Shown here in pieces: positions 9,386 to 21,020 of a stretch of 35,355 bases of DNA. A program made the position numbers and the translations under genes. The stretch covers positions 1 to 35,355 of the forward strand of contig JAIRMK010000146.1 in assembly GCA_031258755.1 (NCBI GenBank). The letters run 5' to 3'. A model generated the notes under the pieces. That model ran no database searches. It was not told where the DNA came from and saw only the letters and a list, made by a program, of their open reading frames with translations. Position 1 is the stretch's first letter, and the number at the start of each line of letters is the position of its first letter. Origin of the DNA: Prevotellaceae bacterium. Its GTDB lineage: Bacteria; Bacteroidota; Bacteroidia; Bacteroidales; UBA932.

Positions 9386-9469
9386 GCCCGGATGGTGGAA
9401 TTGGTAGACACACTAGTTTCAGGGACTAGCGGTCGCAAGGCTGTGCAGGTTCGAGTCCTGTTCCGGGCA
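9386..9469 (+). tRNA. tRNA-Leu (anticodon CAG)
   Basis: Acceptor GCCCGGA/TCCGGGC; anticodon stem CTAGT/ACTAG with loop TTCAGGG; T arm GCAGGTTCGAGTCCTGT; variable arm CGGTCGCAAGGCTG. Confidence 0.95.
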
Positions 9470-9482
9470 CTTTTTCTAAGTG

Positions 9483-11262: not shown

Positions 11263-11679
11263 TCATTTATTTATTTTTTCAATAAGACTCCATAATCTAT
11301 CGATTTCTTTATCCTTTTTATTGAGTTGTTCTTTTAATGTATCAATTAATTCACTGTTTATCTGATAATTGTTTATATGGCTATTGACAATTTTACTATT
11401 TTTCACATCTCCTACTTTTTGATTAATTTTCAGCATCTCACCTTTTCCGGTAAGTAGCCAATCAAGACTTATATCAGGTATAGACGCTGCAATGTCAATT
11501 AAAAGGTCATCCGGCACTCCGGGATATTTATTTGTTCGAGTATCAACATTGAATATCCTATTTAACCTTTGCTGCGAAACATTTTCGAGCCTTTTAGCAA
11601 ATTTAGCAACGTTTCCATTGTCAAGATTTTCAATAATTTCTTTTACTCGGCTGTTTAGATTTGGTAATTTTGTTTCCAT
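11263..11679 (-). CDS. CI-like prophage repressor (HTH)
   Basis: N-terminal HTH (NVAKFAKRLENVSQQRLNRIF), DWLLTGKGEML typical of Bacteroidetes phage repressors; divergent control region. Confidence 0.75.
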   Translation of the reverse strand: METKLPNLNSRVKEIIENLDNGNVAKFAKRLENVSQQRLNRIFNVDTRTNKYPGVPDDLLIDIAASIPDISLDWLLTGKGEMLKINQKVGDVKNSKIVNSHINNYQINSELIDTLKEQLNKKDKEIDRLWSLIEKINK

Positions 11680-11986: not shown

Positions 11987-12160
11987 ATGAGAGATTTTTT
12001 TCATGTTGTCTCTAAATTTTCCTTTAAAGATGCTTTTTATTCCATGTTTCATTTTAACAGTGCAACAGAAAAGCAGCATTTTGATGAATTATTATTTATA
12101 AATGGCACATCTATATTAATATCACTTTCAGCGATATTAATAGTGATAATATCGAAATAG
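11987..12160 (+). CDS. Hypothetical 57-aa membrane protein (not in supplied ORF track)
   Basis: ATG 11987 to TAG 12158-12160: MRDFFHVVSKFSFKDAFYSMFHFNSATEKQHFDELLFINGTSILISLSAILIVIISK. Confidence 0.45.
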   Translation: MRDFFHVVSKFSFKDAFYSMFHFNSATEKQHFDELLFINGTSILISLSAILIVIISK

Positions 12161-12485
12161 CTATTGCTATATACGATACGTATCTCGTATGTTTATAATA
12201 CTTAATAGGCTCCTTGACGCTTTTGGCCTTGTCTTTTAAAAACTGGCTATACCCTTTCTTTTTATACAGAAGCCCAAGAGATGTTATCTCTATATCTGTC
12301 ATATACCTGTCAATAACATCATATATTATTAATCCGTCTCTTGACAGTGTGTTTAAAACATTGTTTAAATCATTACTATTCAAGCTGCCTATTGTTTTTT
12401 CAATGTCTTTAGCTTTAATAGTGCCATGTTTTGCGAGTTCGATAATTAATCTATCGCACAATTTAATTTTTTCTTTTATTCCCAT
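12111..12485 (-). CDS. Winged-helix-like protein with C-terminal TM helix
   Basis: MGIKEKIKLCDRLIIELAKHGTIKAKDIEKTIGSLNSNDLNNVLNTLSRDGLI then YIAIAISILSLLISLKVILI; ATG 12485 preferred to TTG 12518. Confidence 0.55.
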   Translation of the reverse strand: MGIKEKIKLCDRLIIELAKHGTIKAKDIEKTIGSLNSNDLNNVLNTLSRDGLIIYDVIDRYMTDIEITSLGLLYKKKGYSQFLKDKAKSVKEPIKYYKHTRYVSYIAIAISILSLLISLKVILI

Positions 12486-12535
12486 ATTTTCATAAAAAAT
12501 TTTCTCACTAATTATCAACCACTTATAAAATATTT

Positions 12536-12555: not shown

Positions 12556-12587
12556 TTTGCATAAATACTGAAATGTTTGTAATTTTG
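12556..12587 (+). promoter_or_regulatory. Rightward early promoter
   Basis: TTTG 12556-12559, 20-bp spacer, TAATTTTG 12580-12587; spacer contains O3. Confidence 0.65.
12567..12581 (+). promoter_or_regulatory. Putative repressor operator O3
   Basis: ACTGAAATGTTTGTA identical to O1, between the -33 and -7 boxes. Confidence 0.55.
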
Positions 12588-12593
12588 CACTCA

Positions 12594-12716
12594 GTTTCGT
12601 CCCCATGTTAAGAACAGACGAATAAAATAGGGGTGTGCCTGCAAAGCCGCCCATGAGGACACAAGAGAGAGAACTGACGTGGGGACGTAAAGGCTCAATC
12701 TTGTGTCCTTTTTTTT
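12594..12716 (+). ncRNA. Candidate structured leader/sRNA with pseudoknot topology and intrinsic terminator
   Basis: Helix 1 12598-12610 with 12675-12687 (13 bp, 2 G-U); helix 2 12656-12666 with 12699-12709 (11 bp) followed by T tract 12709-12716; interleaved pairing. Confidence 0.6.
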
Positions 12717-12761
12717 AATGATGTAAAGGTAGTGAAAATAGATGAATTAACAAAGAAAAAA

Positions 12762-13328
12762 ATGAACGACATGGAAAATTTAGTAATCATTCAGGATGGG
12801 CAACCGGTCACGAGTAGCCTGCTGGTAGCCGAAGTGTTCGGAAAACGTCATGTTGACGTTCTTAGGGATATTCGGAAATTGCATTGTTCCGAGCATTTCC
12901 GTGTACGCAATTTTGCGTCATTGGTGGAAATGAAAGAGTTGCCACAGGGCGGAGCTTCAAAAGCCGAGTGTTATGTAATGACAAAAGATGGATTTACCTT
13001 TTTAGTTATGGGCTATACAGGAGCGAAAGCGAGCGAGTTTAAAGAAAGGTACATTGCCGAATTCAATCAAATGGAGCGCACACTACAAAGCGGCATCGCC
13101 CTGCGGGTGGCCGCTGTTGAGGAAAACATCAAGCGGCGTTACCTGCTCACCAAAGAACTGCGGGATGTGAACGCGCAAATAAACGAGTTGATGAAACGGC
13201 ACAAATCAATCACAAAAGAGATGCGCGAAATTGATAACGAAGATTTTGCACAACTGTCGCTATTCCCGAAATACGATCCACACACACTCAAAGGTGCGTT
13301 CCCTAACAAGGAGAAAATGCCGAAATAA
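12762..13328 (+). CDS. Rha family phage regulatory protein
   Basis: VTSSLLVAEVFGKRHVDVLRDIRKL...YVMTKDGFTFLVMGYTGAKASEFKERYIAEFNQME. Confidence 0.88.
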   Translation: MNDMENLVIIQDGQPVTSSLLVAEVFGKRHVDVLRDIRKLHCSEHFRVRNFASLVEMKELPQGGASKAECYVMTKDGFTFLVMGYTGAKASEFKERYIAEFNQMERTLQSGIALRVAAVEENIKRRYLLTKELRDVNAQINELMKRHKSITKEMREIDNEDFAQLSLFPKYDPHTLKGAFPNKEKMPK

Positions 13329-15597: not shown

Positions 15598-16467
15598 ATG
15601 CCCTTTATTCGATTAGATAGGAAATTTTTTGAGCATGACTATTGGAAAACCGAGCGCTCTTTCAGTTTTGCGGAAGCATGGTTGGACTTGATTTATATGG
15701 CGAGATTTGACGTAAAACCGGGTAGAAAGATTTTAGCGTCCGGCAGGTATGTTACTATAAATCGGGGTGAGATACATGCAAGCCTGCGGTTCCTTTCGAC
15801 ACGCTGGAAATGGGGTCAAAGAAAAGTTATGCGATTTCTTGATAATTGTGTGAAAGATGACGAGGTGAAACGCAGGACGGAGCAAGGGGAGAGCATTTTA
15901 ACACTCTGTAATTATGAAAAATACAATGTAAAAGTAGATGCCGACAGCAGCACCGATGACAGCGCATTAATCATTTATAATCAAGAAAATATAATCAAAG
16001 AGCGAGCACCGATGACAGCACCGATGACAGCACCGACAGCAGCAAATAATAAGAAAGAAAAGAATGTAAAGAAAGAAAATAATGTTGGTGTGGATGAAAT
16101 TTCCAATTTTGAGGAAAAAATTTCCAATTCCGATGTACAATTTCCAAAAAAAGAAAAAAGTTGCGCCAAAAAAGAAAAAGATGACGACAACGGATTTGAA
16201 AAAGTTTGGGCGCTATACGAGCGGAAGGGCAACCGCAAGACCAGCGAACGCAAGTGGGCAAACCTGAAAAATCATTGCAGAGAGGCCGCGCTAAAGCACA
16301 TCCCGCTATACGTTGCATCGACGCCGGATAAGCAGTACCGCAAAAACTTTGAGACCTACATCAACCAGGAATGTTGGAATGATGAGATTTTGGAAAGGAA
16401 ACAGGTAACGCCACCGCCAGCGGAGCCGTATGTTGTTAATATAAAACCGATAAACGATGATGAGTAG
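15598..16467 (+). CDS. Phage replication initiator / replisome organizer-like protein
   Basis: MPFIRLDRKFFEHDYWKTERSFSFAEAWLDLIYMARF...HASLRFLSTRWKWGQRKVMRFLD; typical wHTH organizer upstream of DnaB. Confidence 0.75.
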   Translation: MPFIRLDRKFFEHDYWKTERSFSFAEAWLDLIYMARFDVKPGRKILASGRYVTINRGEIHASLRFLSTRWKWGQRKVMRFLDNCVKDDEVKRRTEQGESILTLCNYEKYNVKVDADSSTDDSALIIYNQENIIKERAPMTAPMTAPTAANNKKEKNVKKENNVGVDEISNFEEKISNSDVQFPKKEKSCAKKEKDDDNGFEKVWALYERKGNRKTSERKWANLKNHCREAALKHIPLYVASTPDKQYRKNFETYINQECWNDEILERKQVTPPPAEPYVVNIKPINDDE

Positions 16468-19033
16468 AGATAAAAACCAAAGAACACAGGATAATTTCCC
16501 GGCTGTTGAACTGTCGGGCAGGGTACCGCCCTATTCAATCCCGTCGGAACGATACGTTTTGGGGGCGATAATGTCAGGATACCGGGATATAGACGGTGTG
16601 ATAAACATGCTGCAGCCGGAGATGTTTTACAGGGATACTCATACAATCATTTACCGCGCCATTGTGGAACTGCACAGGAATAAAACCGAGATAGACATAC
16701 AAAGTTTATCGAATACACTGAAAAAAAACGGCAACCTTGAAGAAGTTGGTGGGGATTACTACCTGTCCAAACTGATGGGTGACATTGCGAGCGGGTCAAA
16801 CATAGAATATCATGCGCTTGTCGTTCTTGAGACTTATATCCGGCGGCGGTTAAGTGGGATTTCTATTCAGGCGGCGGAAAAAGGCTTCGACCTGAGCATT
16901 CCGGTGGATGATATTTTTTCCGATATTGAAAAGAATTTAGCCGAACTGACACGGCTGATGACTGTAAAGCAAGACGTTAATCACATTGGCGTTGTGGCAA
17001 ACAGCGCAATAGATGAGGCATTCGGGCGCATTGAAAAAGCAGGAAAAGGGATGCCGACCGGTATCACTACTGGATTTAACGGCTTGGATGCGCTGACGTT
17101 CGGGTGGAAGCCGGCGGAGTTAATCGTATTGGCCGCCCGGCCATCTATGGGAAAGACAGCGGTGATGTTGCACTTTGCCAAAGCAGCTGCGAACGCCGGG
17201 AGCACGGCAGTAATATTTTCACTTGAGATGTCGAAAATCAGCATCGCCGACCGTCTGCTGCTGTCTGAATCCCACGAAGGCGAGATGAACATAAACCATT
17301 ACAAGAGCGGGCGTATGGATGAGGGTGAGGTAAACATGTTGGAGGTATTACTCGGCAGGATATACAACAAGCCGATTTATATAAATGACACGCCGGGCCT
17401 GACGATAGGGCAAATACATGCTTCGGCAAAAGAGATGAGAAGAAACGGAAAATGTGATATTATTTTCATTGACTACTTACAGTTGTGTAAGGGTAAAGGG
17501 GTGAGCAATAACCGAACGCGGGATATTGAGGTGGCCGAGATAAGCCGTGAGGCAAAAGAGATGGCCAAAGAACTCAACGTTCCGGTCATTCTGCTGTCGC
17601 AGTTGAGCCGTGAGGTGGAGCGTCGAGAAAAAAAGAGACCGCAACTATCGGATTTACGCGACTGCCTGCCTGTTGACGAATGGGTGGACACTCCTTACGG
17701 AGTTGTTCAGCTTAAAAGTAAGCCGGGGCGTATCGTTAGCGTTACTTGCCAGGGGAGTAAGGCGACCGGATGTGAGTATATTCCCAAAAAATACAACAGT
17801 ACATATACAGTCAGGACACATTTTGGCTCTTTTTCGGCAACGGCGCGGCACCGGGTATTAACCGCAACAGGCTGGAAGTATGTTTGTGACCTCGATGAAG
17901 AACGCGACATACTTGCTTCACCCAAAATCATAACACACGAAAACAGGGGTTATGTTTCCCACGGGAGGCTTTTGGGATGGTTAATCGGGAACGGTTATTT
18001 ATCCGGGACGCCCAGCCTTACCCTGCGAAACGAGTTGATAGATGACCTTCAGGATGAAATTAAAGGCTTCGGGGTTGAAATCAAGCCGAGGGAAACGCAG
18101 AAATGCAGCAATGTGACCGAAGTGTACTTGTCTAATGGTGTGGAATCAGGATGTAAACCCAACCCGCTAATGGAATGGATAAGGGGGCTTGGGCTGGAAG
18201 GTAAAACGGCGAAGGAAAAATCAATCCCTAAGCGATATCTTGGAACAAGCAACGAGGCGCATTTGGAACTTTTGCGCGGTCTGTGGGAAGCCGACGGAAC
18301 CGTATCAAAGGGTACTGCAAAATATTCGACAGTCAGTGAGCTTCTTGCAAGGCAGGTAAAATGGATGTTGCATACCATAGGGGTGCGTTCTTCCATTTCA
18401 CTTGAAGCACGTAAAAATAACTGTTCCGACCTGTTCACGGTGGTTTGTGCGGTTGAGGACAATCCCAACATGCGGCGGATTTGTAGTAATCCCAAACGGT
18501 TTGGGGCGCTAAAAATGCCGTCGGACAGGTATATTGACCCCGCCCCGGAAATATTTGTCCAGTTCGCGCAGGAATACGGCGCAAGCGGAAGGATACAAAA
18601 AAAATATGGTGGCTGCGGGCGGTTAAAAAGTATCGCAAAAAAACGGTTGCTTACAATGATTGCCGAAAATCCCATATCTACAATACAAGAATCACCCTAT
18701 GTCCAGATGCAGGGTATGGGATGGACGAAAATCACATCCATATCGCATAACGAGGATGAAGTACATGTTTGCGACCTGCACGTTCCTGAAACGAACTGTT
18801 TTTTGACAAATGGAATGGTCGTGCATAATTCGGGCGCTATCGAACAGGACGCAGATTTGGTGATATTCGTGTACCGGCCGGAGTATTACAAGCAGTCTAT
18901 AACAGACAGGTATGGCTCCGAGATAACGAACTATGGGGAGTTGATTGTAAGCAAGAACCGGAATGGGCGTTGTGGTGAGGTTGCCTATACCCACTCGACC
19001 GGTATGACAAAGTTTTTTGATTATCAGGAGTGA
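16457..19033 (+). CDS. dnaB: Replicative DNA helicase DnaB interrupted by an in-frame intein
   Basis: DnaB N-terminal domain, AARPSMGKTA Walker A, FIDYLQL, exteins SDLRD and SGAIEQDADLVIFVYRPEYY flank the insertion. Confidence 0.93.
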   Translation: MMSRDKNQRTQDNFPAVELSGRVPPYSIPSERYVLGAIMSGYRDIDGVINMLQPEMFYRDTHTIIYRAIVELHRNKTEIDIQSLSNTLKKNGNLEEVGGDYYLSKLMGDIASGSNIEYHALVVLETYIRRRLSGISIQAAEKGFDLSIPVDDIFSDIEKNLAELTRLMTVKQDVNHIGVVANSAIDEAFGRIEKAGKGMPTGITTGFNGLDALTFGWKPAELIVLAARPSMGKTAVMLHFAKAAANAGSTAVIFSLEMSKISIADRLLLSESHEGEMNINHYKSGRMDEGEVNMLEVLLGRIYNKPIYINDTPGLTIGQIHASAKEMRRNGKCDIIFIDYLQLCKGKGVSNNRTRDIEVAEISREAKEMAKELNVPVILLSQLSREVERREKKRPQLSDLRDCLPVDEWVDTPYGVVQLKSKPGRIVSVTCQGSKATGCEYIPKKYNSTYTVRTHFGSFSATARHRVLTATGWKYVCDLDEERDILASPKIITHENRGYVSHGRLLGWLIGNGYLSGTPSLTLRNELIDDLQDEIKGFGVEIKPRETQKCSNVTEVYLSNGVESGCKPNPLMEWIRGLGLEGKTAKEKSIPKRYLGTSNEAHLELLRGLWEADGTVSKGTAKYSTVSELLARQVKWMLHTIGVRSSISLEARKNNCSDLFTVVCAVEDNPNMRRICSNPKRFGALKMPSDRYIDPAPEIFVQFAQEYGASGRIQKKYGGCGRLKSIAKKRLLTMIAENPISTIQESPYVQMQGMGWTKITSISHNEDEVHVCDLHVPETNCFLTNGMVVHNSGAIEQDADLVIFVYRPEYYKQSITDRYGSEITNYGELIVSKNRNGRCGEVAYTHSTGMTKFFDYQE
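17663..18829 (+). other. Intein (389 aa) with LAGLIDADG homing endonuclease inside DnaB
   Basis: Cys1 (CLPVDEWVDTPYG), TARHRVLT block B-like motif, LLGWLIGNGYL and LLRGLWEADGTVS LAGLIDADG motifs, terminal VVHN followed by Ser+1. Confidence 0.93.
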
Positions 19034-19609: not shown

Positions 19610-20212
19610 ATGGTTGATAAAATCAAATACGACGAAAGGAATTACCGCAAGCACGACGAAAGAAACAAGGCGTTGATAAAAAAGAGCCTTGAGGAGTGTG
19701 GCGCGGGTCGTTCGATTGTTACCGACAAGGATAATGTTATCGTTGCCGGTAATGGCGTGTATGAGCAGGCGCAGGCGCTCGGTTTGAAAGCCCGCATCAT
19801 TGAAAGCGACGGAAAGGAACTCATCGTTATTAAACGTACCGACCTTTCTACGACCGATGAAAAGCGCAAGCTGCTTGCAATGGCGGACAACCGGACATCG
19901 GACACATCGGAATTTGATTTTGACCTTTTGACGGCCGATTTCGATATTGACCTGTTGAATGATTGGGATTTCAAATCTTTTGAATTGGGTATTTCGGCAG
20001 ACAATAATCCCGATGACGAGTTTAATAAGTTTGGTGAGTTTGAGTATGCCAACCGCGATGTTGAAGCTTACCGGAGCATTATTCTACATTTTGACAGCGA
20101 GGACGACGTGAAAAACTTTGCTGAAATCACCCAACTACCCATAAAGGACAAAACAAGGGCAATCTATTTCCCACATAAGGAAAACGAGCGGTTTAAGGAG
20201 GTTTATGAGTAG
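19610..20212 (+). CDS. ParB N-terminal domain-like protein
   Basis: DERNYRKHDERNKALIKKSLEECGAGRSIVTDKDNVIVAGNGVYEQAQALGL, AMADNRTSD; ParB/Srx fold pattern. Confidence 0.8.
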   Translation: MVDKIKYDERNYRKHDERNKALIKKSLEECGAGRSIVTDKDNVIVAGNGVYEQAQALGLKARIIESDGKELIVIKRTDLSTTDEKRKLLAMADNRTSDTSEFDFDLLTADFDIDLLNDWDFKSFELGISADNNPDDEFNKFGEFEYANRDVEAYRSIILHFDSEDDVKNFAEITQLPIKDKTRAIYFPHKENERFKEVYE

Positions 20213-21020
20213 CAATATTCCTATATTTATTCCATCAAAAGGTCGCTACGACAATGGTTTAACATGGAAAGCCCTTGACGCAATGGGTGTGCATCGTTAC
20301 CGTGTCATTGTGGAGCCGCAGGAATATGACAGCTACCGGAAGGTATTACCGGCGGAAAAACTGCTTGTATTGGATATGGAGTACAAGCAGAAGTATGACA
20401 CGTGTGATGGCATACCCTACGCCGATAACCCGCGTGTCGGCAGCGGCGCGGCGCGGAACTTCGGGTGGGATACGGCCAAAAAGGAGGGCGCTCCGTGGCA
20501 TTGGATAATTGATGACAATATCCGGCGTTTTTTGGTGTATAACGACAACCAAAAGTGCATTGCCCGCTACGATACCTTTGCCTGCGTGGAGCGATTTGCA
20601 GAACGATATGAAAACGTGGTAATGTCAGGGATGCAGTATGCCATGTTTGTGCCCAAGAAACAAAAGAACCGTCCGCTTATCATTAACACCCGCATATTTT
20701 CGTGTAATTTGATAAAAACAGACAGTCCGTTCCGGTGGCGCGGGCGATATAATGAGGACGTGATATTGTCATTGGACATGCTCGAAGCCGGATACTGTAC
20801 TGTATTATTCAATACGTATTTGTGTGATAAGATACGCACGCAAAACATGAAGGGCGGGAATACGGATGAATTGTATAAGTCCGGTACGGAAGAAAAGAGC
20901 CGGCTGCTAAAAAGCGTTTACCCGGATAAAGTGGCGTTGGTCATGCGGTATGGCCGGCCACACCACCGTGTCGATTTTTTGGTATATAATAAACGTAATC
21001 AACTAATAAGAAAAAAATAA
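20205..21020 (+). CDS. TET-associated glycosyltransferase (TAGT)-like protein
   Basis: IPIFIPSKGRYDNGLTWKALDAMGVHRYRVIVEPQEYDSY...GSGAARNFGWDTAKKEGAPWHWIIDDNIRRF. Confidence 0.7.
   Translation: MSSNIPIFIPSKGRYDNGLTWKALDAMGVHRYRVIVEPQEYDSYRKVLPAEKLLVLDMEYKQKYDTCDGIPYADNPRVGSGAARNFGWDTAKKEGAPWHWIIDDNIRRFLVYNDNQKCIARYDTFACVERFAERYENVVMSGMQYAMFVPKKQKNRPLIINTRIFSCNLIKTDSPFRWRGRYNEDVILSLDMLEAGYCTVLFNTYLCDKIRTQNMKGGNTDELYKSGTEEKSRLLKSVYPDKVALVMRYGRPHHRVDFLVYNKRNQLIRKK

Follow-up and report, generated by a model that had tools for sequence, protein, structure and literature searches.

A probable RNA switch in the leader of an antirepressor operon in a Bacteroidales prophage

Between a divergent repressor-like gene and the antirepressor gene rha, a contig of a gut-type Prevotellaceae bacterium carries a short stretch whose letters pair with one another in two interleaved helices, which raises the question of whether this stretch acts as an RNA and what it would control. 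We analysed the whole 35,355-nucleotide stretch of DNA around it (hereafter the window) together with related genomes and phages, and we conclude that it probably encodes a previously undescribed RNA switch in the choice of a prophage between dormancy and multiplication.

The leader begins at a sigma-ABfr-type early promoter on the plus strand (12556–12587), which consists of TTTG (12556–12559), a 20-nt spacer, and TAATTTTG (12580–12587). The preliminary description had placed a promoter here, and TTTG-N20-TAATTTTG agrees with the published consensus for B. fragilis sigma-ABfr, TAnnTTTG/TTTG (PMC7366714). Transcription from this promoter is expected to start at about 12590–12595 and to give a predicted leader RNA of about 125 nt that runs to the terminator (12590–12717, plus strand), for which both folding and a 70% identical homologue in another genome, G003, speak. 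Direct reading of the window located both strong helices where they had been described. In the long-range helix H1 (helix 1), a 5' arm that we call seqB (12598–12610, CGTCCCCATGTTA) makes 13 pairs, with G-U at 12606/12679 and 12609/12676, with its complement seqA (12675–12687, TGACGTGGGGACG), and seqA sits in the loop of an intrinsic terminator (12655–12716). The terminator stem has 11 pairs (12656–12666/12699–12709), or 12 when 12655–12710 is added (12655–12666/12699–12710), and encloses a 32-nt loop; because the standard terminator scan accepts loops of 3–8 nt only, it missed this site. Its U run spans 12709–12716, so that the run of eight Ts said to follow the stem is real, but one of the eight is the last paired T of the 11-bp stem, which leaves seven after it.

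Three smaller elements of the same strand lie between these arms or overlap them. The P2 hairpin (12631–12652, GGGUG-U-GC/GC-CGCCC) has the core GGGTG/CGCCC (12631–12635/12648–12652) that had been noted as a minor stem and gains two further pairs (12637–12638/12646–12647) across a bulged U; its sequence is nearly invariant between the window and G003. The linker CAGACGAATAAAATA (12615–12629) is conserved in G003 as CGGACGCATAAAATA. P1', found in the minimum free energy (MFE) structure and in prefix folding, is a competing local hairpin (12596–12622) that uses part of seqB, pairing 12596–12601 with 12617–12622 and 12606–12609 with 12613–12616. A six-codon mini-ORF in the 5' arm (ATG 12605) has no counterpart in G003 and was set aside.

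Downstream of the leader, rha (12732–13328, plus strand; PF09669, 8.8e-30; phrog_518) is the first gene of the early operon. Its start is more likely the ATG at 12771 than the GTG at 12732, since other Rha N-termini read MENLV, MKDLV, or MEELV. We saw no promoter-like element between the terminator and rha in the window sequence, so the early operon appears to need read-through. On the minus strand, the divergent genes are one without a family match (12111–12518), which by eye has a winged-helix-like N-terminus and a C-terminal transmembrane segment, and a repressor-like gene (11263–11679) with weak PHROG matches to transcriptional repressors. Farther upstream, a tRNA-Leu(CAG) (9386–9470) separates host-type genes (a response regulator and a PLP enzyme) from the phage genes and is a candidate attachment site; the genes identified in the window include no integrase. 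The window also holds a DnaB-type replicative helicase split by an intein with a LAGLIDADG domain (16457–19033; PF03796, PF14890, PF14528) and a TET-associated glycosyltransferase (TAGT) gene (20205–21020; PF20691, 1.7e-41; PHROG beta-glucosyl-HMC-alpha-glucosyltransferase, 6e-46) that adjoins a gene for a ParB-like protein (19610–20212); the phage DNA may be glycosylated and hypermodified.

Taken by itself, the window gives suggestive evidence for a functional fold. The MFE of the leader has a z-score of −3.9 relative to dinucleotide shuffles, with 0 of 200 shuffles as good, and the pairing of seqB with seqA alone reaches p = 0.022 against loop shuffles. The helices are nevertheless only mildly unusual: shuffling produced a helix of at least 13 bp 43 times in 3000 (1.4%) and an interleaved pair, each helix 9 bp or longer, 107 times in 3000 (3.6%), and because such structures arise at a rate of a few per cent, the single sequence is not decisive and does not settle the case. 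A strict descriptor, defined as a terminator of at least 8 bp with a loop of 16–45 nt containing an 8-nt exact complement of upstream sequence, had one match in the window and none in 700 kb of mononucleotide-shuffled sequence; over 315 kb of strand sequence it matched only the leaders of the window, G003, G050, and G011.

The comparison with G003, the one full-length relative from a BLAST of 100 related genomes, provides the covariation that the preliminary description had named as a check. The genome is congeneric, and its leader is 70% identical to that of the window over a stretch that starts upstream of the promoter and ends shortly after the terminator, with the −7 element TATCTTTG retained. 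All 10 counted pairs of the terminator stem are identical, whereas the letters of H1 differ (CGTCCCCAT/GTGGGGACG versus CGATTCCAG/CTGGAATCG): four of the nine shared pairs (window 12598–12606/12679–12687) are changed on both sides and none is broken, and H1 of G003 reaches 14 perfect pairs. A local 5' hairpin is present in G003 as well, at shifted columns, which is weak evidence that P1' is conserved.

The surroundings of the two leaders differ. In the G003 prophage, an integrase, HicA/HicB-like genes (by eye), and an HTH repressor precede the RNA, and small unannotated genes and a nuclease/helicase-like set lie 3' of it. The first gene after the leader is a small unannotated one and not a recognised antirepressor, so the element is not tied to rha as such. 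No window protein had a credible match on the G003 contig. Since the two prophages share the leader but no protein, the leader is, to judge from sequence, a module that travels without its neighbouring genes and in which the scaffold is fixed and the pair covaries.

Other features of the two neighbourhoods were recorded alongside. The apparent HicA/HicB toxin-antitoxin pair of the G003 prophage lies next to the integrase (L023 4914–5554, by eye). In each prophage, a small protein with a terminal transmembrane segment (AIAISILSLLISLKVILI, ILIAAASLIVSIIAICRI) is encoded between repressor and leader, on the minus strand at 12111–12518 of the window and at about 7509–7676 of L023, and the two proteins have no significant similarity. 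Directly past the terminator, the two prophages share a motif AAAGGTAGT(G/A)AAAAT (window 12719–12740, L002 1750–1769), even though different genes follow in each.

Close relatives of this leader were few in the genomes searched, which under-sample its distribution. A model of the window and G003 leaders (R1) had strong matches in G000 and G003 only when 394 order-level and 399 family-level genomes were searched, and six weak matches (L016–L019, L021, and L022) fell in ordinary genes or in unrelated stretches, and we dismissed them as chance. The exact terminator-stem pattern occurred, among the 399 family genomes, in G000, G003, and four others, and blastn of the leader against phage and plasmid records gave no match. 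In this sample the window and G003 form a class of two members (class 1), beside a class of three (class 2: G050, G011, and G105). A model of the G050 and G011 leaders (R2) gave chance matches only in 247 order genomes and one new true member, G105, in 125 family genomes.

The layout itself recurs where the sequence does not. In class 2, the G050 and G011 leaders stand directly before rha with a promoter, a 5' element, and a 16–18 bp terminator hairpin whose loop carries the complement of the 5' element, and the G105 leader precedes an AntA antirepressor. The three-sequence class 2 alignment, which was padded by hand with Ns to hold the arms in register, has two-sided changes in 6 of 24 pairs (three in H1 and three in the terminator stem) and 97% of its cells paired; 0 of 500 shuffles were as good, and slid versions dropped to 36–57%. 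The layout is shared by leaders of unrelated sequence that stand before rha or BRO-N operons in G565, G540, and Bacteroides phage B40-8, with BF1-TP2 and BF766P1 as less sure cases. These unrelated leaders were sought upstream of Rha-family genes and hence are no blind sample. Among nine leaders, seqB:seqA pairing beat loop shuffles in eight (p < 0.03; Fisher p = 4e-9), the exception being BF1-TP2 (p = 0.52). The pairing in BF766P1 was weak (p = 0.08). A promoter-plus-terminator scan of the collected loci added a tenth leader, G439 (p = 0.0025). No such leader lay directly upstream of rha in L027, L035, L037, L043, or L044, where rha stands within an operon. The gene products after the leaders (Rha, Rha-KilAC, AntA, and BRO-N) are of antirepressor type, which points to control of the choice between lysis and lysogeny. 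The helices, the covariation, the order of promoter, terminator, and antirepressor gene, and the recurrence of that order are established by these comparisons. Four leaders (G050, G011, G565, and B40-8; L026, L028, L039, and L040), two of which are homologous, also have a linker motif AAAGATAT just 5' of the terminator hairpin, a candidate protein-binding site that falls short of significance once motif choice is roughly corrected for.

In some relatives, seqA may have a further partner. It pairs with the rha start codon over 15 bp in G565 (p = 5e-4) and over 14 bp in G540 (p = 0.0015), in both cases as the best site within 1.5 kb downstream. In G439, where the first gene is a small ORF ahead of rha, seqA makes 10 Watson-Crick pairs with the start codon of that ORF, and the longest-run test with G-U allowed gives p = 0.07 only. 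In G050 and G011 there is no more than a weak match of 8–9 bp a few codons into rha, and start-codon complementarity was absent from the window, G003, G105, B40-8, and BF1-TP2. In the window, no downstream target of seqA was above chance (p = 0.48 for the GTG start, p = 0.11 for the ATG 12762/12771 region), nor was any other antisense target.

Folding of the growing transcript suggests how the pairing of seqA with seqB could be used. The nine leaders folded in this way followed one itinerary, in most of them with the 5' element partly held first in a local hairpin, and the probability of H1 was 0.85–1.00 in all nine at the stage where seqA is out and the terminator is incomplete. For the finished RNA, a nested model preferred the terminator in six of nine leaders and H1 in G565 and G540, with BF1-TP2 mixed. 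The interleaved helices of the proposed pseudoknot are confirmed, but the nested model presents H1 and the terminator as successive states and not as one static pseudoknot. These results fit a kinetic switch in which H1 competes with termination or delays it, the sign of the effect being our reading of the models; sterically, one pseudoknot could hold both H1 and the terminator, and H1 would then not have to oppose termination.

We propose that transcription from 12556–12587 would yield seqB, then P2, then the 5' half of the terminator with seqA in its loop, and that the nascent RNA would pass through three states, from the local 5' hairpin to seqB:seqA (H1) to the terminator hairpin. H1 would form once seqA emerges, ahead of the 3' half of the terminator, and by capturing seqA in cis, seqB would hinder the terminator so that polymerase reads through into rha. 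With seqB occupied, the terminator would fold freely and the operon would be off; candidate occupiers are its own local hairpin, a protein, or, in a lysogen, the seqA of an already terminated leader acting in trans. In G565, G540, and G439, freed seqA could also block translation of the read-through RNA. From the models and the layout we infer that H1 alters termination, which of the states is ON, and any action in trans. On balance we lean towards a leader RNA that gates the antirepressor-headed early (lytic) operon, with seqA:seqB pairing deciding transcription.

Other explanations of the same arms were weighed against this one. In the strict P4 CI or P1 C4 sense, terminated leader accumulated from the prophage would pair through its seqA with the nascent seqB of an incoming phage and force termination there. 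We regard this as possible but rather doubtful. It would make seqA and seqB the determinants of immunity specificity and so explain why only H1 differs between the window and G003, where the covarying helix is the variable part and P2 and the terminator stem are nearly fixed, and P4 CI is described as an RNA that pairs with complementary stretches of the same transcript, one upstream and one downstream of it (PMC4825925), an arrangement that matches the seqB/seqC layout of G565, G540, and G439; against it, seqB would normally sequester seqA in cis and the downstream target is absent from the window. The earlier suggestion of an attenuator or P4/P1-type system is strengthened by the leaders of unrelated sequence that keep this arrangement ahead of antirepressor genes; action in trans stays hypothetical for the window. 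Activation in the manner of IsrK, where a short terminated RNA would bind the read-through mRNA and turn antirepressor translation on, appears improbable: in Gifsy-1 isrK the order is the same (promoter, terminator-bearing sRNA, antirepressor operon reached by read-through) and translation is switched on by the short RNA (PMC4825925), but IsrK pairs with a downstream ORF and not with its own 5' end, and the pairing in G565, G540, and G439 covers the start codon, which points to repression.

Two further readings would make the pairing of the arms secondary. An ordinary attenuating leader, bound at P2 or the linker by a phage or host protein (as a put-like or antitermination RNA) and with H1 as scaffolding, is unlikely, if slightly less so than activation by the short RNA. 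P2 and the linker are nearly invariant in two phages without common proteins, as a host-factor site would be, but other leader families lack P2 and yet keep seqA, seqB, and the terminator. Least probable of all, in our judgement, is that the arms are DNA operators, two inverted copies of a site that the repressor or Rha binds, and that their pairing as RNA is incidental. The region does sit between the divergent repressor and the early genes, and G565, G540, and G439 have a third direct copy at the start codon; however, unrelated leaders place one copy at the 5' end of the transcript and the other in the terminator loop, the strict descriptor found nothing besides four leaders in its 315 kb, and no second close copy of the seqB motif occurs in the window, with none beyond chance at the repressor promoter.

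If gating of the early operon by leader RNA is right, independent leaders with one logic stand before antirepressors in Bacteroidales phages, and such control would be common in a phylum that is dominant in the gut. Antirepressor operons under RNA control have been described in a small number of enterobacterial elements (P1/P7 C4, P4 CI, and Gifsy IsrK), and we found no description of RNA-level lysogeny control in Bacteroidota in the open-access literature, nor anything relevant there on a Bacteroides phage antirepressor or leader RNA. Tentatively, and with less confidence than for the window itself, we suggest that Bacteroidota phages have a widespread, undescribed RNA-based control of lysogeny, a promoter-plus-leader module with a swappable pair (at the 5' end and in the terminator loop, sometimes also at the start codon) that might set both read-through into the antirepressor gene and its translation, act in trans as immunity, and evolve specificity by compensatory change on a fixed scaffold. 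The specific predictions for H1 swaps and for start-codon pairing in G565, G540, and G439 make this cheap to test, and a candidate regulator would be at hand for Rha and AntA, whose control in these phages is unexplained.

The leader matched no known RNA family. Rfam models at gathering score found only tRNA in the window and nothing in five other leader loci, and the leader region had no credible match at E up to 10, an outcome in keeping with the preliminary description, for which a hit to a known family would have counted against it. C4 in particular had no match in the window, in the region (E up to 10), in L002, L026, or L028 (E up to 1), or in the five other loci (gathering score), and the isrK covariance model had none in the window or region. 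By analogy, the leader most likely works like P4 CI, P1 C4, and Gifsy IsrK, and we assign it to none of them.

P22 sar also exerts antisense control over an antirepressor gene, but it is a separate RNA and not the leader of the antirepressor transcript. With P4 CI, an RNA with complementary sequences up- and downstream of it (PMC4825925), our predicted leader would share an untranslated position at the head of an early operon, premature termination before the lytic genes (PMC4825925), and a segment complementary to upstream sequence in the same transcript, the covarying seqA:seqB; a second, downstream complement occurs only in three relatives (G565, G540, and G439) and not in the window. It differs in that seqA lies in the terminator's own loop and the host phylum is Bacteroidota. 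P1/P7 C4 is leader-encoded antisense control of ant in which loops set specificity and the scaffold is conserved (PMC8198154, PMC5320573). Here too an antirepressor operon would be under RNA control from its own leader, and the Rha, AntA, and BRO-N genes downstream reproduce the C4-type layout, but C4 is excised by RNase P and folds into three stem-loops that carry a'/b' loops, whereas here a terminator would end the RNA. Gifsy-1 IsrK combines a promoter, a terminated small RNA, a read-through antirepressor mRNA, and alternative structures (PMC4825925), and for our leader the same set is predicted: a promoter, a small RNA with its own terminator, predicted read-through into an antirepressor gene, and alternative structures. 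IsrK, however, pairs with the downstream orf45 and activates, whereas the partner here would be the RNA's own 5' end.
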